Positions 1,302 through 20,360 of a DNA stretch of 25,670 nt are shown here, one piece after another. Under the pieces are notes generated by a model. It was not told the origin of the DNA. It saw nothing but the letters and a program-made list of their open reading frames with translations, and ran no database searches. Positions within the stretch are counted from its first letter, which is position 1, and the number at the start of each line of letters is the position of its first letter. The DNA is taken from positions 1 through 25,670 of the IMG/VR virus record IMGVR_UViG_3300027631_000120; one strand, given 5' to 3'. This DNA comes from a virus. The position numbers and the translations under genes are program-made.

Positions 1302-1455
1302 TTACGGTGGAGATGTTTTACGGATACGGGTGACAAGAGGATAATTGTTAATATTACCGGTATCTCCGTTATCAATAATATACATCCAATATAATAATCC
1401 CTCGGCTTTGCCCCCAAAAATATATTGGGGAGTTCGGATTAAAAGTAATATTCAT
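1302..1455 (-). pseudogene. Small gene split by a one-base frameshift (about 50 codons)
   Basis: The ATG at 1453-1455 overlaps the TAA stop of the 1817-aa gene as TAATG, the same coupling used at 8024 and 9114. In the plain frame it stops after 27 codons (TGA at 1372-1374). Removing one base from the T5G5 run at 1411-1420 fuses the start to a second open frame ending in TAA at 1302-1304. That gives a 50-residue product beginning MNITFNPNSPIYFGGKAEG, followed by GLLYWMYIIDNGDTG and ending TRIRKTSPP, which looks like ordinary coding sequence. Without the shift this second frame has no upstream ATG or GTG. The options are a decayed gene, a homopolymer error in the sequence or assembly, or a programmed +1 shift. 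I do not recognise the family. It fills most of the gap between the two fibre genes. Confidence 0.5.
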
Positions 1456-4400
1456 TAGGTTTCACCATATGCGGTGGCAATCCAATACGTTGTTCCTGCT
1501 AATCCGGTATTACTATTTGCGTTGATGATAAAACTACCTGCCACCTTACTTTCAATAGTAAATGACCGCGCATCTTCACCTGTTACGACGACTGCGTAAT
1601 TGGTATTTGGAAATGCGGTTCCAAAGGTTACGGTAATTTTTTTAGGATTACCGGTGAACGAAGTATTCGCAACATTTCCAACTTTTGTAGTTAAACCAGA
1701 ACCACCTACGCTTGGTGCGTATGATGCAGACACTGCAAAACTTGATGTTGTGGCAAACGAACTACTAATTGCGTTATTTGCCCAACTAGATGTTCCAAAT
1801 AACGACCCCGTAAATATTCCAGTAAATGAACCTGTGAACGAACCCGTATTAATTTGAGATGAACTACTAACAATCCCCGATGGAATATTACTTAGTCCAG
1901 TATACGATACTTGTGCAGAACTACTAACTACTCCTTCTGTATTTAATTCTTTCTTCACACCATCCAAGAAATGCACCGACCCCGTATCAAGTGTAATTGT
2001 GCCCGTGGACGTTATCGTACCACCAGTTAATCCATCTCCTGCGATGAGTGAGGTTATACCTCCGCCGGGGGCACTTGGGGCATAAGATGCAGATATTGCA
2101 AAACTTGCAGTAGCCGGTGTAAAGGTAATAGAATCCGCAGCACTTGATGTTGTGGAAAAAGATGCACTAACTGCGTTTAATACATACGAAGCAGTAGGAA
2201 TAGTGGTTGGTTGATTTTGTATTGAGTTATAATTAATTTGTGTTGAAGATGATACCAATCCGGTTGGAAGTATAGTTGGGGCGTATGAAGCAGATATAGT
2301 AAAACTAGACGTTCCAATAAACTCACCCGTAAATGACCCCGTAAACGACCCAGTATTGATTTGGACGGACGATGATACGATTCCAAGGGGTAACCCTGTT
2401 GGATTTATATACGAGGATGATATTGCATTACTTGCCCAACTAGACGTTCCAAATAAACTTCCGGTAATTGATGGTGCCAATAATCGTGACGCAGTAACAT
2501 CTCCAACTAAGTTTGTAGTACCCGATACAATTAATCCACTTCCTGTAACAAACAATGACCCCGTAACATCTAATCCATTTGGAAAATTAATATATCCAGT
2601 AAAAGACGATGCCGTTGCCGCAGTTGTTGCAAATGACGCGGAAGTTGCAACGGAGGAGGTTCCGAACACTGAACCTGTGAATACTCCGATGAATGAACCA
2701 GTAAACGATCCTGTGTTAATTTGTCTGGATGATGACACCGTTCCCGCAGGTAAACCAGAAGGAATTACATATGATGAGCTAACTGCATTTGATGCAGTTC
2801 CCGTTAATGGTCCAATGAATAATGAGGCTGATACTGTTGTTGCAAGTATTGATCCCGTAACAATTAATCCTGCAGGAAATGATATTGATCCCGTAAAATA
2901 TGATGCGGTTGCCGCCGTGGTGGCGAAGGATGCGGTCGCTGGTATGAATGTAATGGAGTTTGCAGCACTTGCCGTAGTTGCATTATTTGCCCAACTTGCG
3001 GTTCCAAACATTGTTCCAACGTTTGTGATATTACTACCACCCAATGATAAGTCACCACTCATAGCTCGTGTACCATTCACCAACAAATATTGTGTATGGT
3101 CGTCGGCACTTAATCCTAACAAATTTCCGTGAACAGAGGAAGCATTTACACCTGCTGCTCTAAATCCAATAACTGGACGGATATCTTGTATTTGTGTAAT
3201 ATTAGCAGAACCAGACTGTACGTAAATTGCCGCCAACGCAACAACACCATCATTGAAATAACTTGGAATGCTTGGTAAGTTTGCATTTTCTGCGGCGACT
3301 AAACTTGAATATTCATTAGAGTTAATAACAAGGAAATATTTTTCGTCTATTCCTTCACCTACACCATATAACGTATGTTTGGTGTATGCAGATGCGGATA
3401 ATGGAGCTAATACACTTGCGGAAGCATACAGATTGTTTGGAACAATAGACGAGGTATATCGTGCCCATGTTGATGCACTTGGGTAATATTGAGTAAGATT
3501 TATAGATGATGTGCCAGAAGGAGTAAACTTATTTTCTGAGAAAAAGTATGTTCCTGCTGTTACATCTAATTTAAATGGTGTGACATCTTCTGTAACTGTA
3601 GACCCCGCTGCATATACTGGTCCCAATGCTTCTCTATTAAACGTAGAGAGTTTGTTGGACATATGTTCGCCATTATATGGCGTTTGGTCAATCAGTTCTA
3701 TGGTTGTATTATTTGTTACCACTCTGCCCAAAATAATGTTAGTTTCATTATTTGGAATAGAACCTGCGGCAGTTAATACTTCTGCGGAGGTTAAATAAAT
3801 GTAATTATTGGAATTTGCGGTTAATGTAAGATTGCCATTTACCCAATCTATTCTTTTGTATACGGTAGCATCAATCGCATCTTGTACATATCCGAACCCA
3901 GACGCAACGGTAATATTAAATCCACTTCCAGTAGTAATAACGCCACCTTCCATAACTCCCATAGGAGAACCCTTAAAAATAAGAGTAGTTGCATCAGTAT
4001 GAGTACCGTCTGCAAACGTTACGGACAACTTACGTGTTACGTTATTCTCACCATCAACATCGTCTAAGAAATTCCAATAGAAATCGGGACTATTATTATT
4101 AATTTTTGAGTGGTTAGAAACGCCTTGAAAACGACCTCTTGTGGAACTATTCAATACATCAAAGTCATATACATTTGATTCATGAATCATACTACCAACA
4201 ATTCTAAAGTCAGGCGCAGGAGATGCAGCAGGAACTCTTACGCCATAATCCCACCTCTGCATATCCAATCCTGCTGCTTCTAACGATGCACCTTGTTCTA
4301 TTTTAATTGCAGTAGATCCTGCGGTATTATCTCCTTTAAATAATCCTGTATACAAACTTACACTGGAACTTGGTCCCACTGCGTAGTTACCTATACCAGA

Positions 4401-6908
4401 ACTATTGGATGGGAATAAGTAATAATTTTCTACGTTAGCCAATGAAGTAAAGTTGTTACTAGACGAAACATATACGCCGTAACTAAACGACCCGTTAATA
4501 TCTACGTATTCTCCATAGAAAGTTGAATTAGCAGTATCTGCACATACTTTAATTCCATAGTCATAATCGTATATGGAAATTTTATGTATTTGTGCAAAGT
4601 CACTACCAACAGTTTGTCCTACGTCTGGTGCGGATACAGCAGAATATCCAGCAACGTTATTACCTTTTAATGTTAAAAATGAAACTTCGTTCGTAGGTCC
4701 AAGAATAAGTTGGTCAAATGTTCCACTCCCAGATGGAATAATAACTGTTGTTTGAATATCCGACCCAAGAATAGCAATATATGGTTTTCCACGTAAATCT
4801 ATTTGCTTTTCTGTGAATTGTCCCGGTCCTACGTCAATAACATATCGGTTATTTTCTGCGGAATCTGTGATATATGCCACCGATGCACTAATAGACGTAA
4901 AATCTCCACCCTTTTTTGCAACAGAAATTCTTCGTGGGTCTTGGTTTACTTCATAAAGTGGAGCATCTTTTGCAATAAGAGTTTTTAAGAATGTATCAGT
5001 TCCAGATACTTTTCCTAATGACCCCGTATGTTGAATGTCTACGTCAGTTGTACAATTTTCAAAGTTTAATGCAATTGCGTCAATATTTGGAGCAGACCCA
5101 GTTTGTGGTGCCCAAATACCTTTTATCCACCGTTGAAAATTAACGCCGGTTAAACGAAGTTGTCCACCGTTATATACTTTAAATCCAGTTCCTCTTGCCG
5201 TTCCCGTAGACCGCGTTAACAAACACCCGTTAACAATGAACGTACATCCGGGTGCATCGGCAAGTGCAAATATTTGATTATCGTCTGTTCCGGCAACACC
5301 GCCATTTGTTGAGGTAACGTTACGAAGTTGCATTCGTCCAATACCACCGTCAGAACCAGACGTAACATAAAATCCAACATCAAACGACTTGTTTCCTTCG
5401 GTAAATCCACCGTATTTAACATTAGAACATTGTAAGATACAATTGCCACCACTTCCACTTCCAATAACTTTGGCGTTTGTATAGTTTGTTCCAAATCGTA
5501 CATTTTCTACATATGCAATTGCATTGGTTTGTGGTGTTGTTGGCGACGAATATACAACGGCAGAAACGTTTGGTGCAGTAGACCCTTGTATTTGCATGTC
5601 AATAACCATTGTTTGGTCAGCCATAACAAATATACTAGCACTTGGATTGGATGCAGAAACTATCGTGGAGATGGACGAATCGCCCTTAATCGCAATATAT
5701 GGTTTAAGAGTAATCGTATCTTCTATGTACACGCCCGGATATACTCGTACCGTATACGTGTTTGCAACAGATGCATCAACAATACTATCTACTGCTGCTT
5801 TAATTGAATTATAATTGGTATCACTTCCAACCAATCCTACCGTTACTAAATTATCTATAAACGTAGGGGGAGCATAACTCGCAGAGGTTGCATATGATGC
5901 GGACGTAATACTGCCACTAAAACTTCCAGTATTAATTTGTTGAGAACTTGATACCAGCGTAGGTTTATTTGCAATATTAGTAAACTCTACAAATGATGCA
6001 GTTGCTATTGTAGTAGGTTTATTTTGTATACCAGTATAATCAACTTGTGTAGAACTACTAATTACCGATTTAACATTTAATACGGAGACTGACCCCGTAA
6101 TAAAGTGTGCCGAACCTGTATCAAGCGTTATGGTTCCCGTAGCAGTAATCGTACCACCGGTTAATCCATCTCCTGCGGTTAGTGAGGTTATACCACTACC
6201 GGCACTTGGAGCATATGAAGCGGATAATGCAAAACTTGCACTTGTTGCAAATGATGCAGTTGCGGGAATAAATGTTATGGAGGTTGCTGCGGAGGAGGTA
6301 GTTGCAAATGATGCGGTTGATGGTGTAAATGTTATGGAGGTTGCTGCACTAGCAGTTGTTGCAAAAGAACTGCTTATTGCGTTAGATGCCCAACTAGACG
6401 TTCCAATTAAAGTTCCAGTGAATGACCCACTAAACGAGCCTGTATTAATTTGAACCGAGCTACTCACTGTGCCGGTTGGTAACCCAGTGGGTAATACATA
6501 AGACGATGTAGTTGCCACACTACTCGTACCTAACAACGACCCTGTAATACCGCCAGAACTCATTCGTAACGACCCTGTAATGAACACACTACCACTAATA
6601 TCTAAGTCTGCCGTAGGATTTGCTTTATCTATACCAACTCGGCTTCCGGTAACTACCAATGTATTTTTATTAAAACTTCCCATGACGATTCTATCATCAC
6701 TAAATACTTCAAGAATGGGTAATCCTGAAATATCATTTACACTCATGAGTGAACCGGATAGTTGGTCTGTTATACCAAACAACGACCCAGAATTACCATA
6801 AAACGCAATACTTCCCGACGCTTCTACTTGCAGTCGGATAGTATTTGCGGCAGACCCACTAAATTGTATGGACGCACTTCCAGGTGTTATTAGAATATTA
6901 TTTGGCAC
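1455..6908 (-). CDS. Giant modular tail fibre / adhesin with two beta-helix regions (1817 aa)
   Basis: This is the largest gene here and probably a receptor-binding fibre. Domain order: an N-terminal head with VGIDKANPTADLDISGS near residue 95; an adhesin cassette region (about 120-345) with INTGSFSGSFTG, GTSSWASNAISSSFA and GDGLTGGTIT; a first right-handed beta-helix-like region (about 345-650; YTVRVYPGVYIEDTI); a second (about 655-955) opening with the pectinesterase-like VAKKGGDFTSI; a linker; the fibre motif DDHTQYLLVNGTRAMSGDL (about 1265-1290); further cassettes (about 1300-1735); and a C-terminal domain containing VVVTGEDARSFTIESK and YWIATAYGE. No pectinase catalytic residues could be assigned, so depolymerase activity is unproven. 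The start is GTG: GAGGA lies 7 nt upstream and an in-frame TGA lies 12 nt upstream, so no longer start exists. Confidence 0.88.
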   Translation of the reverse strand: MPNNILITPGSASIQFSGSAANTIRLQVEASGSIAFYGNSGSLFGITDQLSGSLMSVNDISGLPILEVFSDDRIVMGSFNKNTLVVTGSRVGIDKANPTADLDISGSVFITGSLRMSSGGITGSLLGTSSVATTSSYVLPTGLPTGTVSSSVQINTGSFSGSFTGTLIGTSSWASNAISSSFATTASAATSITFTPSTASFATTSSAATSITFIPATASFATSASFALSASYAPSAGSGITSLTAGDGLTGGTITATGTITLDTGSAHFITGSVSVLNVKSVISSSTQVDYTGIQNKPTTIATASFVEFTNIANKPTLVSSSQQINTGSFSGSITSASYATSASYAPPTFIDNLVTVGLVGSDTNYNSIKAAVDSIVDASVANTYTVRVYPGVYIEDTITLKPYIAIKGDSSISTIVSASNPSASIFVMADQTMVIDMQIQGSTAPNVSAVVYSSPTTPQTNAIAYVENVRFGTNYTNAKVIGSGSGGNCILQCSNVKYGGFTEGNKSFDVGFYVTSGSDGGIGRMQLRNVTSTNGGVAGTDDNQIFALADAPGCTFIVNGCLLTRSTGTARGTGFKVYNGGQLRLTGVNFQRWIKGIWAPQTGSAPNIDAIALNFENCTTDVDIQHTGSLGKVSGTDTFLKTLIAKDAPLYEVNQDPRRISVAKKGGDFTSISASVAYITDSAENNRYVIDVGPGQFTEKQIDLRGKPYIAILGSDIQTTVIIPSGSGTFDQLILGPTNEVSFLTLKGNNVAGYSAVSAPDVGQTVGSDFAQIHKISIYDYDYGIKVCADTANSTFYGEYVDINGSFSYGVYVSSSNNFTSLANVENYYLFPSNSSGIGNYAVGPSSSVSLYTGLFKGDNTAGSTAIKIEQGASLEAAGLDMQRWDYGVRVPAASPAPDFRIVGSMIHESNVYDFDVLNSSTRGRFQGVSNHSKINNNSPDFYWNFLDDVDGENNVTRKLSVTFADGTHTDATTLIFKGSPMGVMEGGVITTGSGFNITVASGFGYVQDAIDATVYKRIDWVNGNLTLTANSNNYIYLTSAEVLTAAGSIPNNETNIILGRVVTNNTTIELIDQTPYNGEHMSNKLSTFNREALGPVYAAGSTVTEDVTPFKLDVTAGTYFFSENKFTPSGTSSINLTQYYPSASTWARYTSSIVPNNLYASASVLAPLSASAYTKHTLYGVGEGIDEKYFLVINSNEYSSLVAAENANLPSIPSYFNDGVVALAAIYVQSGSANITQIQDIRPVIGFRAAGVNASSVHGNLLGLSADDHTQYLLVNGTRAMSGDLSLGGSNITNVGTMFGTASWANNATTASAANSITFIPATASFATTAATASYFTGSISFPAGLIVTGSILATTVSASLFIGPLTGTASNAVSSSYVIPSGLPAGTVSSSRQINTGSFTGSFIGVFTGSVFGTSSVATSASFATTAATASSFTGYINFPNGLDVTGSLFVTGSGLIVSGTTNLVGDVTASRLLAPSITGSLFGTSSWASNAISSSYINPTGLPLGIVSSSVQINTGSFTGSFTGEFIGTSSFTISASYAPTILPTGLVSSSTQINYNSIQNQPTTIPTASYVLNAVSASFSTTSSAADSITFTPATASFAISASYAPSAPGGGITSLIAGDGLTGGTITSTGTITLDTGSVHFLDGVKKELNTEGVVSSSAQVSYTGLSNIPSGIVSSSSQINTGSFTGSFTGIFTGSLFGTSSWANNAISSSFATTSSFAVSASYAPSVGGSGLTTKVGNVANTSFTGNPKKITVTFGTAFPNTNYAVVVTGEDARSFTIESKVAGSFIINANSNTGLAGTTYWIATAYGET
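1710..3010 (-). repeat. C-terminal array of degenerate adhesin cassettes in the giant fibre gene
   Basis: About five imperfect copies of a cassette are seen, with the pattern [LP]-x-G-x-VSSS-x-QINTGSFTGSFTG followed by GTSSWA-NAISSSFATT and SITF-PATASFA. Copies are centred near 1760, 2330, 2640, 2740 and 2950. They vary in length and order, which suggests duplication and recombination, not simple tandem slippage. Confidence 0.75.
6200..6545 (-). repeat. N-terminal adhesin cassette array in the giant fibre gene
   Basis: This stretch encodes GTSSV, GLPTGTVSSSVQINTGSF, GTSSWASNAISSSFA and then SITF(T/I)P-ATASFAT twice in succession. It is the same cassette type as the array at 1710-3010, separated from it by about 1000 residues of beta-helix and linker. 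At 6250-6350 the DNA shows two close near-identical units (GATGCAGTTG/GATGCGGTTG followed by AAATGTTATGGAGGTTGCTGC). Confidence 0.7.
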
Positions 6909-6962: not shown

Positions 6963-8024
6963 TCATCTTATAGTGATAGGAGATGTACCCGTTGAACTTA
7001 ATTGAATATTGGAATTACCAATATTTCCAAGTTGTATTCCATTTGGTGAGTTTGATACTCTTAATGGCCCCGCATACCACGGAGCCGTTCGTGTATTTCC
7101 ATCAAAATCATCACTAAAAGAACCTGTATCGGATGCACTTAAATCTACTCCACTTTTTTGTGCCACAGGGTCCATCCAATCTAAATGATAATCTCCAATA
7201 GAACTGTTAGCAAAAATTACTGTTTGGTTTGTTATTGCATTTGTTCCAAATGCGGTACCATCGGTTGATATATTATTTGTACTTTTTACTAAATCAAGTC
7301 CCCCATTAGGTGCTGACCCACCGGATATCTCGTATGCTTTGCCAGCAACATTATGTATATTTAACGATATACAATTTCTAAGTATTATTCCGTTTGTACT
7401 ATTACTAGAAAATTGCCATCCTTTTTTTCCTCCCCCAAAAATTGCTACACAATTATCGTATTGAACATTTGCATTATCGTGTCTATACACACCGGTTATA
7501 ATACTTGCGGCAATATTACCCCCATTTATCATTATTCCAACACAATTCTGTAATCTTATGTTTCCTCCTCCTTGAAAAAACCAACATGCCCCGGCATTAT
7601 TAATAAGACCAGACCTTGCTACACAGTTTCTAAACGTAGTATTACTTGTTGGGAAAAAATTAGATGTGTTTGGTTGATCAGAAGTCATTTCTACCTGAAT
7701 ATCATATACTTGTATGTTTTGAACCGCACTCGTTCGTAATCCAGAAACACCACCAGTAGTAACTCGTAATAAATACCGAGAACCATCGGTTGTCATGGGA
7801 ATTGTTGCTTTTGCCGACGAATGGGCACGAATAATAATATAATTATTTACACCCGTTGTCCATCCCGATACTGTTACGGCAGTTGTATCTATAAACGGAT
7901 AACATTCGGCAACTTCAATCTCGTCAAGAGCTACCAAGTCTCGTTGTTGTGCAGCTTCCCACGCAGATAATGATGTATAATCACCACCACTTGCTTTAAT
8001 CGTATGTACAACTGTTGTTGCCAT
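6963..8024 (-). CDS. Right-handed beta-helix virion/appendage protein (353 aa)
   Basis: The N-terminus (HTIKASGGDYTSLSAWEAAQ) is typical of right-handed parallel beta-helix proteins of phages and bacteria. The middle carries repeated Asn/Cys rungs: TTFRNCVA, IRLQNCVGI, VQYDNCVAI and ILRNCISLN at roughly 22-40-residue spacing, consistent with stacked coils. Near residue 310 the string DFDGNTRTAPWYAGP resembles the C-terminal cap common in this fold. A short Ser/Thr-rich tail follows (GNIGNSNIQLSSTG). The likely role is a host-surface glycan binder or spike subunit; lyase activity cannot be deduced because no catalytic set is evident. Its ATG overlaps the stop of the preceding 131-aa gene by one base (TAATG), implying translational coupling. 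Confidence 0.82.
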   Translation of the reverse strand: MATTVVHTIKASGGDYTSLSAWEAAQQRDLVALDEIEVAECYPFIDTTAVTVSGWTTGVNNYIIIRAHSSAKATIPMTTDGSRYLLRVTTGGVSGLRTSAVQNIQVYDIQVEMTSDQPNTSNFFPTSNTTFRNCVARSGLINNAGACWFFQGGGNIRLQNCVGIMINGGNIAASIITGVYRHDNANVQYDNCVAIFGGGKKGWQFSSNSTNGIILRNCISLNIHNVAGKAYEISGGSAPNGGLDLVKSTNNISTDGTAFGTNAITNQTVIFANSSIGDYHLDWMDPVAQKSGVDLSASDTGSFSDDFDGNTRTAPWYAGPLRVSNSPNGIQLGNIGNSNIQLSSTGTSPITIR

Positions 8025-8419
8025 TAGTTAGTACCTGTTATTTTGTTTATAAACATAGGTTCTACTATATTCCAATCTAATGTGAGTTGCCCTGTTGTAG
8101 TTAATTCACTTAACTGTTCAATTGATAACTGTGTTATATCAAACTTCCATAATCGTTGTAGTAATATTTCGGTTCCTTCCATGTCCTGTTTTGGTTGGGT
8201 GTATTGAGATGTTAAATATAATACGGTTTCTGCATCAACATTTAATAATTTAACTAACCAAAATTTTGGATTGGTTGCGGTATTTGGATGTTCTTGAGTT
8301 CCCCACGGATGATTGTCGGGCATCATTACAATTACATCACCTTGTTTATAACAATCACGTTCACTAATGAGTATATCTTCGTGAGTATTATCTTGATTAA
8401 ATATTAAACATTCTGCCAT
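8024..8419 (-). CDS. Small protein of unknown function with a GDVIVMMPDNHPWG motif (131 aa)
   Basis: The protein begins MAECLIFNQDN and contains CYKQGDVIVMMPDNHPWG near residues 23-40, then FWLVKLLNVDAETV and a Leu/Gln-rich C-terminal half (ILLQRLWKFDITQLSIEQL). The motif gives the impression of a compact beta domain. I recognise it only as a small protein that accompanies phage adsorption genes, with no established function that I can name. It lies 5 nt after the third LamG-like gene and overlaps the start of the beta-helix gene by one base, so it is translated with the surface-protein block. It could be a linker or chaperone for its neighbours, but that is a guess from position. Confidence 0.72.
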   Translation of the reverse strand: MAECLIFNQDNTHEDILISERDCYKQGDVIVMMPDNHPWGTQEHPNTATNPKFWLVKLLNVDAETVLYLTSQYTQPKQDMEGTEILLQRLWKFDITQLSIEQLSELTTTGQLTLDWNIVEPMFINKITGTN

Positions 8420-8424
8420 ATAAA

Positions 8425-9114
8425 TTATACCCCGAATCTTGAGCGTTGTGCGTTAAAGTTTTGAAGGATTTCGGTTGCGGATAACGATTTATTATAAACT
8501 TGTGCAATTGCTATAGAGCCGTTGAACCCCCAGCCACTTAACAATTGATTACTATTGGCCAGTCCCCCAATTAACAATGGTTGTATGTTAGTAATGTTCT
8601 GTGCCGCACTAGTGATTTGTGTTTGGTAAACTCCGTCAACATATACCGTATCAGATGTGCTAGTATGCACCATAACCGCACAATGCCAACGACCGTCTGT
8701 CCACGCACTGGTTGTTGCTACTTCTCTATTAGTGACTCCATCAAACGAACTCATATATAGATTAGTAGCACTCATAACTAGTACAGATTGTATAAAGCTA
8801 GGTGACGCTGCTCGGAATCCAATCAATCCAGTTGTTTGTGAAACGGAAGTTTTAAACCAACACACATATGTTAAATTTCCAGTACCAACCGTAGGTGTGT
8901 AATTTGTTAATATAAAATCATCTGTGCCATCAAACACAATAGTACCAGCCCTGTCTCCGCTAAAGGTAGGTCCGTTTGTTAATGCCCCTATTATATTATT
9001 TCCACTTAAATCAGTCCACGCGGTTCCTGTTGTTGGATATGATTTAATGTTTGCCGCATCTAATAATAATACCAATCCATCCTCTGATAAATTTGGGCCA
9101 CCACTAACACTCAT
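8425..9114 (-). CDS. LamG/ConA-like lectin-fold virion protein, copy 3 (229 aa)
   Basis: The sequence shows the concanavalin A-like jelly-roll pattern (LamG type): LSEDGLVLLLDAANIKSY near the N-terminus, WTDLSGNN, IVFDGTDDFI, YVCWFKTS, WHCAVMVHTSTSDTVYVDGV, then LLIGG and a C-terminus of AQVYNKSLSATEILQNFNAQ ending RSRFGV. The fold usually binds carbohydrate, so a host-surface binding or decoration role is likely, though no ligand residues can be assigned. It is the most divergent of three paralogues; its N-terminus lacks the PKIVTDG seen in the other two. Its ATG overlaps the stop of the 86-aa gene (TAATG), indicating coupled translation. Confidence 0.85.
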   Translation of the reverse strand: MSVSGGPNLSEDGLVLLLDAANIKSYPTTGTAWTDLSGNNIIGALTNGPTFSGDRAGTIVFDGTDDFILTNYTPTVGTGNLTYVCWFKTSVSQTTGLIGFRAASPSFIQSVLVMSATNLYMSSFDGVTNREVATTSAWTDGRWHCAVMVHTSTSDTVYVDGVYQTQITSAAQNITNIQPLLIGGLANSNQLLSGWGFNGSIAIAQVYNKSLSATEILQNFNAQRSRFGV

Positions 9115-9374
9115 TATATTATCTCGGGTTCAGGGGATACCCATTCCGATGTTTCTAATATACTTAGCATTTCTTCATAGGTATAATAGATACTTTTTGT
9201 TGTTAGATTTTCCACACAACTTGGCACAGTATCATCCCATTTTACAAATGTTTTTGTATTATCAACAGATTTTCGTAATGTATCTGCTGATGTTTCTAAT
9301 ACTTGTGTAAAATCTATTAATGGTATTTCTGATACATCAAATATTACAAATTGTCTATGTTCGTAAGTATGCAT
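9114..9374 (-). CDS. Small protein of unknown function inserted between LamG-like genes (86 aa)
   Basis: The protein starts MHTYEHRQFVIFDVSEI and contains DFTQVLETSADTLRKSVD, TKTFVKWDD, LTTKSIYYTYEEMLSIL and a C-terminus SEWVSPEPEII. It appears to be a compact alpha/beta protein with no signal peptide or membrane segment. The phrase 'VLETSADTLRKSVD-TKTFVKWD' seems to me to belong to a small protein recurring in the fibre regions of environmental T4-like phages, but I know of no function. It begins 3 nt after the second LamG-like gene and overlaps the start of the third, so it may serve one or both lectin-like proteins. Confidence 0.72.
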   Translation of the reverse strand: MHTYEHRQFVIFDVSEIPLIDFTQVLETSADTLRKSVDNTKTFVKWDDTVPSCVENLTTKSIYYTYEEMLSILETSEWVSPEPEII

Positions 9375-9377
9375 GAT

Positions 9378-10088
9378 TTATACCCCAAATCTGCCGCGAG
9401 TGGCGTTAAAGTTTTGAAGGATTTCGTTGGGAGATAGAATTCTGTTATACATGGAAACATTTGCCATAGAAGCAGCAATTATTCCCCAAAAAGTATCCAA
9501 TGAATCAATCAGTCGTATTGGTTGCGAACTTATTGTAATTGTAGAGGGCACTGTTGCCGAGGCAGTAAATACTCCGTTTTGATATATTTTTACATCAGCA
9601 CTACTAGCACCGATATCAACTGTTAATACTGCATGGTGCCATGTATTATCTGCTACTAAATTACCAACTGCCGATGCGGAATTTGAACTACCTTTTGCGG
9701 TAACAAACACCGTGGTCCCACCAGTAAGCCCAAATACATATCCGTTAAACGAACCAATCACATCTGCTTTTCCAAAAAGAATAGATGATATTGAGCCACC
9801 TTGGTTGGTACCCACCCCGTTTCTTTTAAACCACAACAGTACGGTAGTTTTACTTCCTCTTAACGTAGCAGAATCTGCAATTTCTGCATAATTATTTGTT
9901 CCATCAAATACAATAGTTCCGTTATTTGCTGCACTAAAGGAGGGAGTATTTACCAAGGTACAGTTAAAATTATTTCCGCTCAAATCACTCCACGTTGCAC
10001 CAGAACCACCATATGACCGCCGATTTGCCGCATCTAAATATAATACTAATCCATCGGTGACTATTTTTGGAGAATGAATAAATGCCAT
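9378..10088 (-). CDS. LamG/ConA-like lectin-fold virion protein, copy 2 (236 aa)
   Basis: The protein opens with PKIVTDGLVLYLDAANRRSY and continues with GSGATWSDLSGNN, IVFDGTNNYAEI, TVLLWFKRNG, WHHAVLTVDIG, VKIYQNGVF and a C-terminus of NRILSPNEILQNFNATRGRFGV type. These are the strands and turns of a laminin-G-like jelly roll. Its N-terminal 40 residues are close to those of the next copy at 10092-10790, pointing to a recent duplication, while the centres differ. The likely role is glycan binding on the virion surface. It starts 3 nt after the previous gene and ends 3 nt before the 86-aa gene. No enzymatic motif is visible. Confidence 0.87.
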   Translation of the reverse strand: MAFIHSPKIVTDGLVLYLDAANRRSYGGSGATWSDLSGNNFNCTLVNTPSFSAANNGTIVFDGTNNYAEIADSATLRGSKTTVLLWFKRNGVGTNQGGSISSILFGKADVIGSFNGYVFGLTGGTTVFVTAKGSSNSASAVGNLVADNTWHHAVLTVDIGASSADVKIYQNGVFTASATVPSTITISSQPIRLIDSLDTFWGIIAASMANVSMYNRILSPNEILQNFNATRGRFGV

Positions 10089-10091
10089 ATA

Positions 10092-10790
10092 TTATATTCC
10101 AAATCGGTTACGAGTGGCGTTAAAATTTTGAAGAACTTCGTTGGAAGAAAGTGCTTTATTGTATATTTGAACATTTGCAATTTTTCCATTAAATGCTCTG
10201 GTAAAATCTGCGCGGTTTCCTATATTAAAATTTTCACTTAAAAAAGAAATAGGTTGTGGGACCGCGTCTGACGTTACTATACTACCATTTTTATATAAAA
10301 TTGCCGTCGTTGATGTGTGAGTCAATGTTAAATTTGTCCAAGTATTTAGTGATATTATATTTGATATTTGTAATTGGTCCGTTGGTTGATTTCCATTTAC
10401 TAAATATGTAACTCCATTTACAATAGGACCTGCATTATCAAGTAGTAAAGCAAATCCAGCTCCCCCCGAGACTGTCCATTTATTTACAATTCTACCAATA
10501 TTACTTCCACCAAACCCAACTGGATTAATCCACGCATTAATAGTTAATGCGGTTGTTAAATTTAACGTGGACGAATTTCCACAATTTACATTATCATTTG
10601 AGCCATCAAATACAATACTTCCTCCGTTTCCACTATCAAATGTTGGACTATTTTCCAAGGTTCCACTACTATTATTTCCACTTAAATCATTCCATGTTGC
10701 ACCACTACCCGCATAAGATTTACGATTTGCCGCATCTAATGCAAGGACCAATCCATCGGTGACTATTTTGGGACTATATGATGTAGACAT
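10092..10790 (-). CDS. LamG/ConA-like lectin-fold virion protein, copy 1 (232 aa)
   Basis: The architecture matches the next two LamG-like genes: PKIVTDGLVLALDAANRKSY, GSGATWNDLSGNN, IVFDGSNDNVNCG, LTINAWINPVGF, WTNLTLTHTSTTAILYKNG, NIGNRADF and a C-terminal KALSSNEVLQNFNATRNRFG. The strand pattern W-NLTLTH / ILYKNG is the usual LamG signature. Function is inferred as a carbohydrate-binding virion decoration or adhesin. It is the first of the three paralogues in transcription order, one nt after the stop of the 210-aa jelly-roll gene. A region rich in AT codons (TTT, AAT, ATA) contrasts with the C-ending codons frequent in the capsid gene. Confidence 0.87.
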   Translation of the reverse strand: MSTSYSPKIVTDGLVLALDAANRKSYAGSGATWNDLSGNNSSGTLENSPTFDSGNGGSIVFDGSNDNVNCGNSSTLNLTTALTINAWINPVGFGGSNIGRIVNKWTVSGGAGFALLLDNAGPIVNGVTYLVNGNQPTDQLQISNIISLNTWTNLTLTHTSTTAILYKNGSIVTSDAVPQPISFLSENFNIGNRADFTRAFNGKIANVQIYNKALSSNEVLQNFNATRNRFGI

Positions 10791-10791
10791 A

Positions 10792-11424
10792 TTATTGACT
10801 TCCTACGATAAGTTTTCCAACAGGAGTTTGTGAAACAATACATAATGATTTTGCATTCGTGGTGGGTATATCTGCTGCAATAAAGTTATCCATTCGGGTA
10901 CCGCGTATATTAGTCCAGTTATAATACATTCCGGGTTGACCCGTGGGATATGTGGTATCTGTTCTACTATCCACCAATCTTCCATTTTGATATACAGACA
11001 ATCTACTTCCTGACACTGATAATTTGAAAGTATCTCCCGTCACTCCCCCCAAGTTTGGTCCGCCAAGTGAAGTTATTGTACTTCCTGACAATTTTGATAA
11101 TGTGCGACCACCAAATGTTAGCCCGTCAATATGTAAGACATACCCCGTTTTAGTTACGGGGTCAAGACGAACTGCGGGACCGGCTAAATCGGAGGTTTGT
11201 ATGGCTGTATATGTTATTTGTGATTCGTGGTTGGGAGAGAAGGTTGCCACCGAAGGTTTTACTGCATTTGCACTTGGTTCACTATTGCCACCATATACCT
11301 GTTGACTAAATACTCGTAGCGATGTACCTGTTACCGTATCATAATTACTTCCTAACACACCGTCTGCTCTATTAAAATCATCAATAAATACATTGGCAGA
11401 TGCCATACTTGCGGATACTGGCAT
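10792..11424 (-). CDS. ConA-like jelly-roll virion protein (210 aa)
   Basis: Near residue 13 the motif FIDDFNRADGVLGSNYDTV marks a family of beta-jelly-roll proteins found in phages and bacteria. It is followed by TYTAIQTSDLAGPAVRLD, GYVLHIDGL and FKLSVSGSRLSVYQNGRLVDS, the alternating strands of a lectin-like or glucanase-like sandwich, and by MYYNWTNIRGTRMDNF. The last 30 residues form a small extra segment (LCIVSQTPVGKLIVGSQ). It differs from the three LamG-like genes that follow but probably shares their general fold and surface role. It starts one nt after the 738-aa fibre gene stop, so it belongs to the same translational unit. No catalytic residues were identified. Confidence 0.78.
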   Translation of the reverse strand: MPVSASMASANVFIDDFNRADGVLGSNYDTVTGTSLRVFSQQVYGGNSEPSANAVKPSVATFSPNHESQITYTAIQTSDLAGPAVRLDPVTKTGYVLHIDGLTFGGRTLSKLSGSTITSLGGPNLGGVTGDTFKLSVSGSRLSVYQNGRLVDSRTDTTYPTGQPGMYYNWTNIRGTRMDNFIAADIPTTNAKSLCIVSQTPVGKLIVGSQ

Positions 11425-11425
11425 A

Positions 11426-13642
11426 TTACTCCACCGTTATTAATGGAGCAACGTCTTTACGAGTTGCTTGTACATAGTAGAAACAATTGATTGACGTATC
11501 TAATAAATTACTCGTATTGATTGTCACTGAATTATTTTCAATAGATTTTATGTATAGTTTTTGATGTTTTCCGATTGGCGTTAGTTGTACCGTAATACTA
11601 TCTGCATCAACCAACCATTCCCATTCTTCCGGTAGTGTAATAACATTTGCATTAGTTAGTTTACCCCGAACATATACACCATGTTCTTTTCCTTCCAATA
11701 CACCGTAAATAAGTTTCTTGCCCAACAATACTTGATGGTCAATTTTGAAACTCTTGGTGGTTGCTTGTAATCCACCCGCAATAGTTACAGGACCGGTTAC
11801 ATTGATTCCATTACTGCCGGTTACTGTTAACGAGCCAGTAATAACTGCTGCACCAACATATGGGAATGTAGTATTTGGTGCATAGGATGCCGATGTTGCA
11901 AAACTTGCTGTGGTTGCAAATGATGCGGACGCCGGTGTAAAGGTAATTGATGTTGCTGCGCTTGCGGTTGTTGCAAATGACGAACTTGCAATTGGATTGG
12001 AAGAACTAATGTTGGTAGTCCATATGGTTTTAACCCTGTTACTAGACGATCCAATATCCACGGTGTTATTTGCATCGGGTAGGAACGCACGGGTTCCATC
12101 TATGTACCACGCACTACCTTGGTTAACATAGAAGGTTATAGTAGATGCAACTGTGGTTCCAATTTTAAAATCTTGAGTACTAGGAGCGTAGTGTATAAAT
12201 GCAACACCATCAGCAAACTTTAATGAGGGATTGGTTACCGTATTATTGATGAGAACGTCACCATTTCTAACCGCAACGGAACCAGTTACGGTAAGTGATC
12301 CTGTTATAATTGCACTCCCCGTGAATGGGAATATAGGTGTTGATGCTGCATTTAAAGCATAACTTGCGGTGATTGCATTATTAGCCCAACTTCCGGTGCC
12401 AAGTAAAGTACCAGTAAATGATCCACTAAATGAACCAGTGTTAATTTGGGTAGACGAAGAAACTAATCCACTTGGTTTATTAGTTAATGCATCCCACGTA
12501 CTTGCTGCTCCAGAAACATAACTTGCCGTCATTGCAAACGATGCGGTTAAGTTATTAATTATGTTAGGCAGTGTTGCTATACTACCAGAAATATTTAATG
12601 ATCCTGTTAAGGTATGATTATTATTTGCTTCAAGAGTTAATTTTCTAGATAATTCTACATCACTACCACCAGCAAAGAACATAATATGATTATCGGGTGT
12701 TGCATTTCCGATATGCAACATACTGCCGGTGGAATACAAATATGCATCATTGGGACCGCCAATTAATCCAGTAAATTGACTACTGTTAATACCCATGTTA
12801 ATATAATTGGCTGTTTCCGTTCCATTGTCGGCAGTTGCCACGATGTCAGAGGATGCATCTGTGCCGTTAGAATCATTTTTTAAATTAATTTGTGCATATG
12901 AGTTCGTACTAGCCCGTGCATTAATTACATTAAATGATTCTGGAATTGCTTGTACGGCAAGTGCTTCTGGTGCGCCTGATGCGGGGGTAGATGTATTAAT
13001 GCCCACAAATCCTTGTGTGTCAATGAATACACGCGCATTACTGATTGCGCTACCTGCGCCACTGAATAATATAATTCTGCGGTCAACCGAGGTATTTCCA
13101 ATTAGTAAATCACCATCTCCTGCCATATACAAATAGGCATCGTCTGCTCCACCAATAGAATCGCCGCTGCCGGCATATCCCGTCCCATTAATACCCATGT
13201 TAATATAACCAAATAATTCCGTGCCAGAATCCGTGGTGGCAACGATGTCAGAAGATGCACTTGGACCCGTACTGAAGTTCTTAACATTTATTTGGAAATA
13301 GTTGTCGGTGGTGCCGTGTACCGAGACTGCATTGTAAGAATCGGTAACTCCTGCAAATACACCGAATCTATCGGGTGCTTCGGGAGTGTGTTGTGTAGTT
13401 GCTCCTAGTAATAAACTTGAGCCGGTTTGAAATAATAAACTGGATGAGAGCGTTGATGCGCCCGTCCAAAGAGGAATATAATTTTCAGTACCGCCCGTTA
13501 CTTTATTTGTAATTGATGCAGTTCCAAATAACGATCCACTAAACCCAGAAGCGTTTATTGTACCGGTAGCAGTCAACGAACCGGTAAGTTGTGTGCTTCC
13601 TGATACTATTAGTCCTTTGCGTGCAACGAATTCATTAGCCAT
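11426..13642 (-). CDS. Tail-fibre-like structural protein with internal duplication (738 aa)
   Basis: The N-terminus MANEFVARKGLIVSG is shared with the 795-aa fibre and is a good candidate for a common attachment element. Residues about 98-209 and 233-340 are two copies of one module, each with SSDIVAT-(D/N)-GTE, YINMGIN, DAYLY and IGN. GTGSWANNAITASYA and SITFTPASASFATTASFA cassettes follow. The last 111 residues (from TTKSFKIDHQVLLGKKL) contain GVYVRGKL, LPEEWEWLVD, SITVQLTPIG and NCFYYVQATRKDV, a C-terminal domain I associate with phage fibre and structural proteins. Start choice rests on the conserved N-terminus, because no Shine-Dalgarno is seen close to the ATG; two hairpins occupy the leader. 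The protein probably forms a fibre or collar appendage. Confidence 0.85.
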   Translation of the reverse strand: MANEFVARKGLIVSGSTQLTGSLTATGTINASGFSGSLFGTASITNKVTGGTENYIPLWTGASTLSSSLLFQTGSSLLLGATTQHTPEAPDRFGVFAGVTDSYNAVSVHGTTDNYFQINVKNFSTGPSASSDIVATTDSGTELFGYINMGINGTGYAGSGDSIGGADDAYLYMAGDGDLLIGNTSVDRRIILFSGAGSAISNARVFIDTQGFVGINTSTPASGAPEALAVQAIPESFNVINARASTNSYAQINLKNDSNGTDASSDIVATADNGTETANYINMGINSSQFTGLIGGPNDAYLYSTGSMLHIGNATPDNHIMFFAGGSDVELSRKLTLEANNNHTLTGSLNISGSIATLPNIINNLTASFAMTASYVSGAASTWDALTNKPSGLVSSSTQINTGSFSGSFTGTLLGTGSWANNAITASYALNAASTPIFPFTGSAIITGSLTVTGSVAVRNGDVLINNTVTNPSLKFADGVAFIHYAPSTQDFKIGTTVASTITFYVNQGSAWYIDGTRAFLPDANNTVDIGSSSNRVKTIWTTNISSSNPIASSSFATTASAATSITFTPASASFATTASFATSASYAPNTTFPYVGAAVITGSLTVTGSNGINVTGPVTIAGGLQATTKSFKIDHQVLLGKKLIYGVLEGKEHGVYVRGKLTNANVITLPEEWEWLVDADSITVQLTPIGKHQKLYIKSIENNSVTINTSNLLDTSINCFYYVQATRKDVAPLITVE
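12620..13351 (-). repeat. Duplicated module inside the 738-aa fibre gene
   Basis: Two successive protein modules of about 110 residues align by eye: first copy roughly 13351-13016, second roughly 12946-12620. Shared landmarks in order are (Y/F)QI(N)-K-(N/D), SSDIVAT, GTE, YINMGIN, DAYLY, IGN and (I/M)-F-(S/A)G. The linker between them includes VGINTSTP. Confidence 0.7.
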
Positions 13643-16966: not shown

Positions 16967-17317
16967 TTATCTCGTCACCGTTGGTCTTACGGTAAATCCA
17001 CCCTCCAATACACGACGGACAATTGGTGCACTGGAACCACTGCTAATGTTTACATCATAAACATATTTTCGTTGAGTTAAATTTACAGTATCGGCTTGAC
17101 TCAATTTAATAAATATACTTCCCGACGAATACGGTAGTATTTTTTCAAATGACAACGTTGCAGCAATTTCATCCGTTGTATAATTTTCTCGCAATTGGCC
17201 GGTGAACGTGTAATCTGTTATATTAATGGGTGTGTTGTTTACACTTCTGTTTAACAACTGTACCATTATTTTGAATGTTTCCCCTTGACCAACTTGGAAA
17301 TCCGTAATATCTGCCAT
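16967..17317 (-). CDS. Small virion protein, Ig/BppU-like beta sandwich (116 aa)
   Basis: The pattern is DFQVGQGETFKIMVQLLNR at residues 5-23, then PINITDYTFTGQLRENY, GSIFIKLSQADT, RKYVYDVNIS and a C-terminal RRVLEGGFTVRPTVTR. This alternation, ending in '(V/L)-LEG-x-x-TV-P-VTR', is typical of small phage baseplate or fibre-associated domains resembling the N-terminal domain of BppU-type baseplate proteins. It likely acts as a connector for appendages. GAGA lies about 6 nt before the ATG, and a TATTTATA box lies 26 nt before it, directly after the tail tube terminator, so it begins a new transcript with the 235-aa gene. The family assignment is by pattern only. Confidence 0.72.
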   Translation of the reverse strand: MADITDFQVGQGETFKIMVQLLNRSVNNTPINITDYTFTGQLRENYTTDEIAATLSFEKILPYSSGSIFIKLSQADTVNLTQRKYVYDVNISSGSSAPIVRRVLEGGFTVRPTVTR

Positions 17318-17999: not shown

Positions 18000-20360
18000 T
18001 TACGCTGTTGGGAACGTTGCACCCGTTGGGAGAACGTTGAAGTCAAGGATAATGAATTCAGCCGTTCTGGTGGGTTGCAGATAGAGTTGTCCATACAGGA
18101 TATTTCTATCAATGACATCCGGTGTGTTATTGGTTTCATCCATGACCACACGGAATGCATACAACCCAGAACGTTCTTGGACACTTGCCAAGTACGGATT
18201 GACGATGTTCAAGAAACGATTACGAGTTGCTTCCACGTTTTGTTCAAACACAAGGTAACGGGAAACACTTGCAATGTATTTCTTCACGGCAATTAACAAA
18301 CGACGAACGTTGACACGATCAAGTGCTGATGCACGGCGTTGTAGAGTCTTCTGACCCCAGACACAGATACCTTGGCCTGGGAATTGTGCAATTGGGTTAA
18401 CCTTACCTTCGTACAAGGTATCCCGACTTGCTTGTGGGAGACGAGCCTTAACACCTACTGCACTTGCAATGCCACCACGATTTAATCCAGCAGGTGCAAA
18501 CCATTCTGCTGCAACATTGTCGTTGTAAGCATAAATTTCTGGCAGAATTACCGAGGGCGGTACCCAGAGTAACTTGTTGGTATTAGTGTCAATGACTCTC
18601 AACCACGGATAGTACGTTGCTGCATAGTTACTATCAATTTCACCTGCCTTACCAGTGGCAGTTGCTAAGGTAGCATTTAATTCAGTGGTATCCATGATAT
18701 AGAAACAATCACCACGGTCTTCACACAATGTCAAGGCCTCTGTTGCAATATATGAATGATGTTGATAAATAACACCAGGAAGAATCAAGAGATTGAAGTC
18801 CCATTGATCTTGGTTACTAAGAGCTTGCAATGCTTTCTTGTAAGCCTTTGAACCTGCCGTTGCAGCATTTTGAAGATTAAATCCTTGTGAGTTTGTTGCA
18901 ACAATGTCACCGCCCATCTTAATATCACGAGCAGGATTCATACCATCAAATCCACCTTGGAATGGTACCGAGAACTTACGGTATGCTAAACTATCGTTAT
19001 CCAATGAAATTGATGCAGAGAATTGTAGTGAAGAACCACTTGGAACTTCAACCAACGTTTCTAATGTAAACGAAGAATTTGTAACTGATACCGCATTTTC
19101 TGGATCTGATATTGGTCCGAGATATGATGGATTGGTTCCTTCGTTATCGGCAAAGTCCCATCCATAATAGTAACGCTTGTCAACGGATTGGGTTGTATAT
19201 CCTTCAATCGTGCCATCTCTCCAACGTGAAGTAACAAACAATGGAGTTACTAGTTGATTAGCAGTAACTTTTACGGTTGATTCTATTGCACCAAATCCAA
19301 ATGGAAGTGCAGATGTCGGAATTACCGAGTCACTTAGTTCTACATACACGTACTGTGATGTATTTGGGAAATCACCTTGGTAATAACGTTCAGCTGTATT
19401 TGGGTCGTCGTACGGAGCACTATTACCGAGTACCCGTGCAATGAACTGTGGACTATCTGGGTCTAACGTGAGGTTCTCATATTGTTCTAATACTTCAATG
19501 CGTGAATCCGTGTCATCATAACGACGGATTAACATAGAGAATGTTCCCCACGGATTATTTTCTACGTCATCGCTCTTCTTCATGTTCAAGAAGGAAACTT
19601 TAACTTCTGTATTTGCAAAGTTACCATCACTGAATGTATGGAGTTTGAACAAGTCAATCTTAGTTCCTGCAATTGTTTGTGATTGAATCCACGGCGTATG
19701 AGCGTTGGAGAACCCAACGTCCGTGAAATTTACTGCTGCACTTGATGTTTCTGCATGCACTGTAACTTGTGATGCCAAACCAGATGCCGTTGCCGCAGTC
19801 ACTGCTTCGGGAAAGATTGAATAGATAAATGAATTCTTTGTGGTTACTGGACTAGATCCCAACAAATCGCCAAAGTATGCAGTTGATGTTTCATCTGTAG
19901 TTAGTCCACTTTGACTAATTGCAGTACCGCCGTCAGCAATGATGTTAATAGAAAAACTAGTTCCTGTTCCACCAGCAGCAATTGAATTAATCGTATTTCC
20001 TACACTACTTGGATGTACGACTGCAAACAATTTCTTACCACTTGATCCAGAAACATAAATTAATCCTGGAACGGTGGTGTCGTTATCATATCCTTCGGTT
20101 CCAAGAACACGAACGATGGTTGCTACGCCTGACTCGCGTAGATAATTCTTAACTGTTAACCCAGTGTAGTGATTCGCATCGGCTTCACCAAAAAGGGTAA
20201 CATATTCCTGCGGACTTCTTACAATTGTTGGGATGAATGCTGGACCTTTTGGTGTCGGTCCAATAAATGCTCCCCCAATTTCACTGATACCCTGTGTTAA
20301 GAAACTTAAGTCTCTTTCTCGTGTGAACACGCCAGGAGAAACAATTCTCTCATTTGCCAT
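18000..20360 (-). CDS. 18: Tail sheath protein (T4 gp18-like)
   Basis: The N-terminus MANERIVSPGVFTRERDLSF is the classic opening of contractile sheath proteins, followed by IGGAFIGPTPKGPAF and an early domain with GEADANHYTGL and VRVLGTEGYD. The C-terminal region, about residues 640-786, holds FPGQGICVWGQKTL, VNVRRLLIAVKKYIA, NRFLNIVNPYLASVQ and TAEFIILDFNVLPTG, the conserved sheath core that contacts the tube and neighbouring subunits. At 786 aa it is about 125 residues longer than T4 gp18 (659), the extra length probably lying in the variable outer domains. GGAGG 6 nt before the ATG supports the start. It follows the coiled-coil gene by 23 nt and precedes the tube gene, matching T4 order. 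Confidence 0.96.
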   Translation of the reverse strand: MANERIVSPGVFTRERDLSFLTQGISEIGGAFIGPTPKGPAFIPTIVRSPQEYVTLFGEADANHYTGLTVKNYLRESGVATIVRVLGTEGYDNDTTVPGLIYVSGSSGKKLFAVVHPSSVGNTINSIAAGGTGTSFSINIIADGGTAISQSGLTTDETSTAYFGDLLGSSPVTTKNSFIYSIFPEAVTAATASGLASQVTVHAETSSAAVNFTDVGFSNAHTPWIQSQTIAGTKIDLFKLHTFSDGNFANTEVKVSFLNMKKSDDVENNPWGTFSMLIRRYDDTDSRIEVLEQYENLTLDPDSPQFIARVLGNSAPYDDPNTAERYYQGDFPNTSQYVYVELSDSVIPTSALPFGFGAIESTVKVTANQLVTPLFVTSRWRDGTIEGYTTQSVDKRYYYGWDFADNEGTNPSYLGPISDPENAVSVTNSSFTLETLVEVPSGSSLQFSASISLDNDSLAYRKFSVPFQGGFDGMNPARDIKMGGDIVATNSQGFNLQNAATAGSKAYKKALQALSNQDQWDFNLLILPGVIYQHHSYIATEALTLCEDRGDCFYIMDTTELNATLATATGKAGEIDSNYAATYYPWLRVIDTNTNKLLWVPPSVILPEIYAYNDNVAAEWFAPAGLNRGGIASAVGVKARLPQASRDTLYEGKVNPIAQFPGQGICVWGQKTLQRRASALDRVNVRRLLIAVKKYIASVSRYLVFEQNVEATRNRFLNIVNPYLASVQERSGLYAFRVVMDETNNTPDVIDRNILYGQLYLQPTRTAEFIILDFNVLPTGATFPTA

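Follow-up and report, generated by a model that had tools for sequence, protein, structure and literature searches.

Tandem LamG-fold genes with conserved ends in a T4-like phage: a probable modular adhesin locus whose relatives exchange gene centres

What kind of locus holds several small lectin-fold genes in a row, alike at both ends and different in between? The question is raised by IMG/VR record IMGVR_UViG_3300027631_000120, whose positions 1 to 25,670 (a 25,670-base virus record, hereafter the window) carry late genes of a T4-like myophage on the minus strand. Three standalone LamG/ConA-like proteins are encoded there on the minus strand: LG1 (10092..10790, 232 amino acids [aa]), LG2 (9378..10088, 236 aa) and LG3 (8425..9114, 229 aa). 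The initial annotation, made from the sequence alone, described three consecutive genes; a conserved 86-aa companion open reading frame (ORF), mid86 (9114..9374, minus strand), separates LG2 from LG3, and one base is common to its stop codon and the start codon of LG3. Genes of this fold form arrays in related phages, their centres can be replaced wholesale between close relatives, and the 86-aa partner accompanies them. We consider that this is probably a modular adhesin locus in which the conserved gene ends act as recombination arms, with swapping of the T-even gp38 kind.

All three proteins are members of Laminin_G_3 (PF13385), with 80.4 bits for LG1 (E=2.1e-22), 66.2 for LG2 (E=4.7e-18) and 57.2 for LG3 (E=2.9e-15) against a cut-off of 27.6. 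The annotated set of three same-strand LamG-like paralogues is therefore borne out, and a structural model of LG1 agrees on the fold. The three-way alignment gives 45% identity to LG1 for LG2 and 39% for LG3, and a search of the genome with LG1 recovers LG2 at 42% (E = 1.4e-43) and LG3 at 38% (E = 3.5e-29), far beyond chance. The motifs named in the annotation (DGLVL-LDAAN--SY, W-DLSGNN and LQNFNA-R-RFG) are common to all three copies. The AlphaFold2 model of LG1, built from an alignment with 78 other sequences including LG2 and LG3, has a mean predicted local distance difference test score (pLDDT) of 93 and a predicted template-modelling score (pTM) of 0.91. Compared by VIA, it matches arabinanase AbnA (5ho2) with Z 23.4 and a root-mean-square deviation of 2.3 over 196 aligned residues, and AbnA domain 4 solved with arabinotriose (5hon) with Z 22.8; its next matches are the jelly-roll parts of clostridial binding domains (Z about 21-22). 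The model confidently predicts a ConA-like two-sheet jelly roll. The likeness to the arabinotriose structure is a mere lead to carbohydrate binding. The likeness to clostridial neurotoxin domains is one of common fold alone, with LG1 scoring 22.5 bits against that binding domain in Pfam (cut-off 23.8), and LG1 shows no sign of a toxin. The LamG family profile also matches pentraxins and sialidase domains in the PDB. The phage proteins share fold and sequence family with Pfam Laminin_G_3, AbnA domain 4 and pentraxin-type domains; unlike these, they are standalone and single-domain, and have a conserved N-end of their own and a C-end that contains RF. R[FY] occurs within the last 8 residues of 468 of the 486 standalone LamG ORFs.

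Conserved ends and diverging centres, as first noted for the three window genes, are widespread in the family. With the N-end defined as the first 65 residues, the C-end as the last 34 and the centre as what lies between, amino-acid identity between loci is 0.475 at the N-end, 0.176 in the centre and 0.481 at the C-end (a 5% sample of pairs from 336 distinct standalone LamG sequences, the window's three included). For LG1, the proposed recombination arms are the N-end (codons 1-65, 10596..10790), in or just after which the breaks of relatives fall, and the C-end (residues 199-232, 10092..10196), both on the minus strand like those of the other copies. The N-end of LG2 (9894..10088) has a 20-nucleotide (nt) exact run in common with LG1, equalled in 5/100 synonymous shuffles, and the N-end of LG3 (8920..9114) also has one of 20 nt with LG1, equalled in 0/100. 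The C-ends of LG2 (9378..9482) and LG3 (8425..8529) have an exact run of 24 nt in common (0/100). Codon identity among the window copies is 0.59-0.67 at the N-ends, 0.41-0.74 at the C-ends and 0.36-0.38 in the centres, the last over 14-16 residues only. At matched amino acids, codon identity of neighbouring copies exceeds codon-usage expectation by 0.117 at the N-end, 0.034 in the centre and 0.077 at the C-end; between loci the excess is 0.059, 0.028 and 0.001, respectively. Within arrays, the end-minus-centre excess is positive in 71/97 loci (mean 0.055, confidence interval 0.036-0.074). Two neighbouring copies in locus L098 have codon identities of 0.90 (N-end), 0.96 (C-end) and 0.46 (centre).

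Comparison of related phages reveals the replacement itself. Contigs L186 and L187 are 97.5% identical, with aligned coverage of 0.58 for LamG and 1.00 for other DNA, and L094 and L102 are 93.0% identical, with 0.32 and 1.00. LamG pairs were taken as orthologous where start and stop both lie in aligned DNA (at least 88%), which gave 220 pairs, 19 of them distinct and non-identical. Centre DNA identity is 0.39-0.48 in eight of these, 0.80 in one and at least 0.94 in ten. In the eight replaced pairs, identity is near 1.0 before the gene (7/8) and in its first 30 nt, drops to about 0.2-0.5 after codon 70 in five pairs and after about codon 90 in one, is lost earlier in L186/L187 and L165/L190, and is back to 0.83-1.0 in the last 30 nt in 8/8. 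Downstream of the replaced gene identity is high in 6/8; the ungapped comparison drops in L256/L273 and L165/L190, and in the latter a gapped match runs on at 93.7%. In L097/L102 the first and third LamG genes are replaced and the second is kept, and in L094/L105 two neighbouring centres are replaced, the first 180 nt of the second gene being at 0.93-1.0 except for a last stretch at 0.73. The eight pairs derive from six contig pairs and 11 contigs, the names of which carry 11 different sample numbers, read here as separate data sets. Within these six contig pairs, which were chosen for replacement, 8/11 LamG pairs are replaced; of 19 non-LamG genes, one has a 150-nt window below 0.6 (0.59), a stricter criterion than the mean identity by which the LamG centres were judged, and their median identity is 0.993. 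Conversely, 26 pairs have a common centre with differing ends or flanks, many of them from related arrays; in five (L107/L182, L116/L117, L119/L123, L149/L301 and L268/L273) centres are 75-95% identical and both 300-nt flanks are at 0.22-0.41 ungapped. An opposite mosaic is seen in L257/L259 and L105/L115, where centres are 97-100% and N-ends 77-83% identical, as if exchange had also taken place within the N-end; in L257 and L115 the gene is near a contig start, where assembly noise is possible.

Conserved blocks thus surround the exchanged segment, as in swapping of the gp38 kind, in the relatives rather than in the window. Three genes for small LamG lectin-fold proteins and one for a conserved 86-aa partner lie side by side in the late structural region. 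In the mechanism we propose, the gene ends would stay with their place in the genome, and the centre, which is most of the domain, would be exchanged wholesale. Since most breaks between near-identical phages lie in the conserved ends (roughly 65 codons at the start of the gene and 25-35 at its close), exchange probably proceeds by homologous recombination in these ends. For the same reason, anchoring to the virion, proposed in the initial annotation, is not the sole possible reason for the conservation of the ends. Targets of diversity-generating retroelements receive point changes at fixed sites and keep their length. Retroelement-driven diversity was rejected here, as replaced genes differ in length (e.g., 717 vs 681 nt) and their centres have about 40% DNA identity. 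The reverse transcriptase profile PF00078 had no match in the window, which is itself a genome fragment.

Arrays of this kind are widespread among viral contigs. A scan with the three-gene alignment confirmed at least 494 relatives, of which 80 loci were kept, and the loci collected by all six scans hold 697 LamG ORFs in 243 loci. LG1 relatives reach about 44-49% identity. The comparison of copy number suggested by the initial annotation gives 1-11 genes per array with a mode of three: the 143 arrays not cut by a locus edge have one (43), two (33), three (55), four (3), five (3), six (4), ten (1) or eleven (1) genes, counts that carry a locus-fetching bias and from which overlapping loci of one contig were removed only in part. 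Gaps between neighbouring LamG genes are -20 to 12 nt in 223/311 cases and 220-330 nt, the size of the small companion gene, in 49/311. The window order LamG-LamG-mid86-LamG recurs in 16 of 155 runs not cut by an edge (runs and arrays were grouped differently). Three loci (L131, L164 and L096) have 10 to 13 LamG ORFs each, with one mid86 in L131 and L096 and none in L164. Among the matches listed from the open-licence literature, titles and abstract openings describe neither tandem LamG arrays nor the 86-aa family.

The companion protein mid86 has relatives in 72 IMG/VR loci, with up to 78% identity. In loci fetched by mid86 alone, a LamG gene lies directly upstream of 51 of the 60 distinct relatives (three are at a locus edge and six lack it) and downstream of 30; as a control, of the remaining ORFs with 70-130 aa on the plus strand of these loci, which were called mechanically and are not all genes, 9/193 have LamG upstream. 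The placement of mid86 is chaperone-like, directly downstream of genes with a putative adhesin role. When 80 members were compared with Pfam and PHROGs, no family was matched by more than one member and none was named chaperone. The confident AlphaFold2 model of mid86 (pLDDT 88) had no Foldseek match in the PDB at E 0.001 and a best VIA Z of 4.5; absent matches do not show a new fold. A family member directly follows a LamG gene in phage S-SKS1, in the Flavobacterium immuto phages and in a Bacteroidetes metagenome-assembled genome contig, the one locus found by a scan of genome contigs, where a two-LamG protein stands directly before the 86-aa gene. The partner can remain constant beside changing centres: L098 and L295 have 100% identical mid86 proteins, with unrelated LamG centres upstream (0.28) and downstream (0.30). 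Several other 100% rows represent one contig fetched twice and were not counted. The side of mid86 on which a LamG gene is placed, before or after, is predicted by its five nearest neighbours with a score of 0.663 from the N-end and 0.589 from the C-end (permuted, about 0.495), and is not predicted from the centre (0.500). As far as these sequences go, in related lineages the ends travel with the locus and the centres do not.

Could mutation alone have produced this pattern? Old duplicated lectin genes might have diverged without exchange, their ends held as structural core or virion contact and their centres drifting fast by positively selected point mutation. Structural constraint is plausible, since the conserved C-end of LG1 holds the last strand (201-210) and the C-terminal helix (216-230) in the model. 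Copies within a locus are also only weakly more alike than copies of different loci (mean identity 0.375 vs 0.352, exact duplicates merged beforehand). Gradual divergence, however, would give intermediates, and centre identity between near-identical phages is bimodal, with 1/19 pairs intermediate; the other genes of the contigs with replaced centres have a median identity of 0.993. As the sole process at work, divergence is already difficult to defend, and we regard it as quite improbable. The small difference within and between loci also fails to support the amplification proposed in the initial annotation as a recent event; the closest within-locus pair is at 0.59, and recent tandem duplication was rejected as a general account. 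The nearest neighbour does lie in the same locus for 17/298 copies, a small real excess (permuted mean 2.4, maximum 8 in 200). LG1-LG3 might instead have been acquired ready-made from different sources, with ends alike by family membership alone. In a large alignment the closest sequences of all three are in other phages (45.9-49.3%), and in a smaller one this holds for LG1 and LG3, with LG1 the closest to LG2 (41%). Yet the 20-24 nt exact runs in the ends exceed synonymous shuffles for two pairs (less so for LG1-LG2), and the N-ends surpass the centres in codon identity, the centres over few residues. Phylogeny, by which the annotation held that its reading might be refuted, cannot tell one origin from several on these sequences: 44/76 inner branches are open, a clade of LG1-LG3 is not rejected (p-AU 0.85), and LG1+LG2 are joined with SH-aLRT 90, unstarred. 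We consider separate sources unlikely.

An assembly artefact would have a different cause, the repeated LamG ends leading the assembler to join centres of different strains. All loci in the replacement test are metagenome contigs, the LamG ends are indeed repeats, and two of the pairs with differing N-ends lie near a contig start (L115 and L257), which would suit such an error. In L186/L187 and others, however, both flanks are near identical around a different centre, which would take two switches. The replaced genes are ORFs of normal length, the same arrays occur in separate contigs (L099, L100 and L101 have the same gene coordinates), L102 and L110 are 100% identical over 3293 nt, and the longest run common to the window copies is 24 nt. 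An artefact is therefore very improbable. A further alternative concerns function, namely that the LamG proteins decorate the capsid or bind environmental polysaccharide and have no part in the choice of host receptor. Some PHROGs matches do fall under head and packaging as virion structural protein (phrog_8510). Against this, of 118 LamG ORFs with at least 400 aa (not deduplicated), 94 have a LamG domain that ends at most 15 aa before the C-terminus, and in the window the tail genes and a gene matching phrog_3304, "L-shaped tail fiber protein assembly", lie upstream of the array. Such roles away from receptor choice seem unlikely to us. One record names the S-PM2 homologue a virion structural protein, and two others call it a hypothetical protein; together with the C-terminal place of LamG and the gene surroundings, this suggests that the LamG proteins are on the virion, and the fold family suggests that they bind host glycans. 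The link to host recognition drawn in the initial annotation is thus probable, and replacement of a centre may change host choice.

Several observations weigh against an adhesin locus built by exchange of centres, or limit its reach. Five of the eight replaced pairs belong to one lineage (L094/L097/L102/L104/L105), so about four lineages are independent, and some of the ten kept pairs repeat one contig (L155 and L253). The strict class, with a centre below 70% and both ends above 85%, has only 2/19 pairs, because the end identities of the eight span 0.49 to 0.96. All of the replacement evidence comes from metagenome assemblies. Among the matches listed, there was no near-identical relative of the window array, and scans with its two flanking genes confirmed none, so that replacement is seen in relatives and the history of the window rests on its sequence signature; from that signature, the window's own three genes may have arisen by centre exchange. 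The codon excess at the ends is modest, and N-ends of different loci show some too (0.059). Among named phages, LG1 matches are rare (11/50,697 records at E 1e-5). A LamG ORF is present in 8/80 loci fetched by tail sheath, most of which are too short to reach the array, and L009 and L046 (75% sheath identity) extend past the array distance with no LamG ORF seen. When close companions are removed at 80, 70 and 60% limits, N-end prediction of position beside mid86 is 0.650, 0.558 and 0.402, the last below the permuted mean; the signal fades with divergence and so reflects linkage, and a universal position address in the LamG ends was rejected.

Exchange of receptor-binding parts has a known counterpart. 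T-even phages reportedly swap gp38/gp37 adhesins by recombination between conserved motifs, in work said to be that of Tetart, Desplats and Krisch from 1998. As in that system, conserved motifs would recombine and variable receptor-binding segments of the tail-fibre region would be exchanged. Here the unit is different, each tandem gene encoding one entire LamG jelly roll and having a conserved block at either end, and the 86-aa partner, also conserved, is a further component; none of the Pfam and PHROGs families matched by the window proteins bears the name gp38. Synechococcus phages S-PM2 and S-SKS1 and the Flavobacterium immuto phages also have several LamG domains, and in S-SKS1 and immuto the 86-aa family directly follows the LamG gene, as here. 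Unlike the separate genes of the window, the LamG units of S-SKS1 and S-PM2 are fused in long proteins. In S-PM2 and S-SKS1 (L323 and L324) several LamG domains lie in one protein of 1058 and 960 aa, respectively, possibly a fused array. In marine phages, metaviromic islands lie at host-recognition genes, and the genes that can be identified most often in these variable regions are reported to include lectin-like, carbohydrate-binding and tail-fibre genes (Mizuno 2014; PMC3909814). LamG arrays fit that report, the passages concerned not describing LamG arrays, breaks at gene ends or a companion protein. In Alteromonas phages, according to another report, a tail fibre and its cognate chaperone are shared between phages as one recognition module (PMC10579305). 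Compared with the module as that text presents it, mid86 differs in lacking a matching family or clear fold match and in staying constant beside differing LamG centres.

From its position, mid86 may help to assemble or cap the LamG adhesins. A bolder idea, which we put forward tentatively and hold to be rather doubtful, is that mid86 is a constant adaptor or chaperone that recognises the LamG ends, so that arriving centres are assembled at once, and that the three LamG proteins form a mixed multi-headed tip with several specificities. If the adaptor idea is true, S-SKS1 and S-PM2, with several LamG units in one protein, would have this device in a fused form. The matches listed from the open-licence literature for virion proteomics of the immuto phages had no paper naming immuto.

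The remaining genes place the array in its genome. The tail sheath (18000..20360, minus strand) marks a T4-like myophage in tblastn, with Microcystis phage Mel-JY01 (46%), an uncultured phage (41%) and the Flavobacterium immuto phages (40% over 79%) nearest. The gene matching phrog_3304 (16967-17317) encodes 116 aa (E=2.6e-15). Directly upstream of LG1 is a minus-strand gene for 210 aa (10792..11424), taken in the initial annotation for a fourth jelly-roll protein, a reading that was not confirmed: the protein has no Pfam match at E 0.1, a weak match to phrog_2804 (virion structural protein, E=3e-4) and a single match among PDB sequences, to an unrelated transporter protein (E = 0.11). Profile matches to it occur in five collected loci, the window counted, and a direct scan of viral contigs confirmed no relative. 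Farther upstream, a minus-strand gene (11426..13642) encodes a 738-aa protein read as fibre-like from its repeats, the C-terminus of which matches phrog_28536 and phrog_17490, both families of unknown function. Downstream of LG3 is a 131-aa ORF (8024..8419, minus strand) with no Pfam or PHROGs match and no match in a pattern scan of viral contigs. A second fibre-like protein, of 1817 aa (1455-6908), has many TGSLFGTSSWA-type repeats and profile relatives in 119 collected loci. Positions 1-699 are 96.4% identical over 699 nt to IMG/VR contig 3300024346_000008 (L091/L168), and the rest of the window's 25 longest DNA matches are at about 64-78%, which points to a mosaic boundary near a fibre-like gene.

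The initial observation is thus partly confirmed, and its interpretation partly supported. Phages of uncultured aquatic bacteria differ strongly in their host-recognition genes, and this class of locus offers a readable plan by which one genome might change its recognition parts and keep virion assembly, with conserved ends, exchangeable centres and a conserved partner. It also brings to light a widespread small protein family without an entry in Pfam or PHROGs, which is present in cultured Synechococcus and Flavobacterium phages and can be tested there. The signature of the array can be used to search metagenomes for probable adhesin cassettes.

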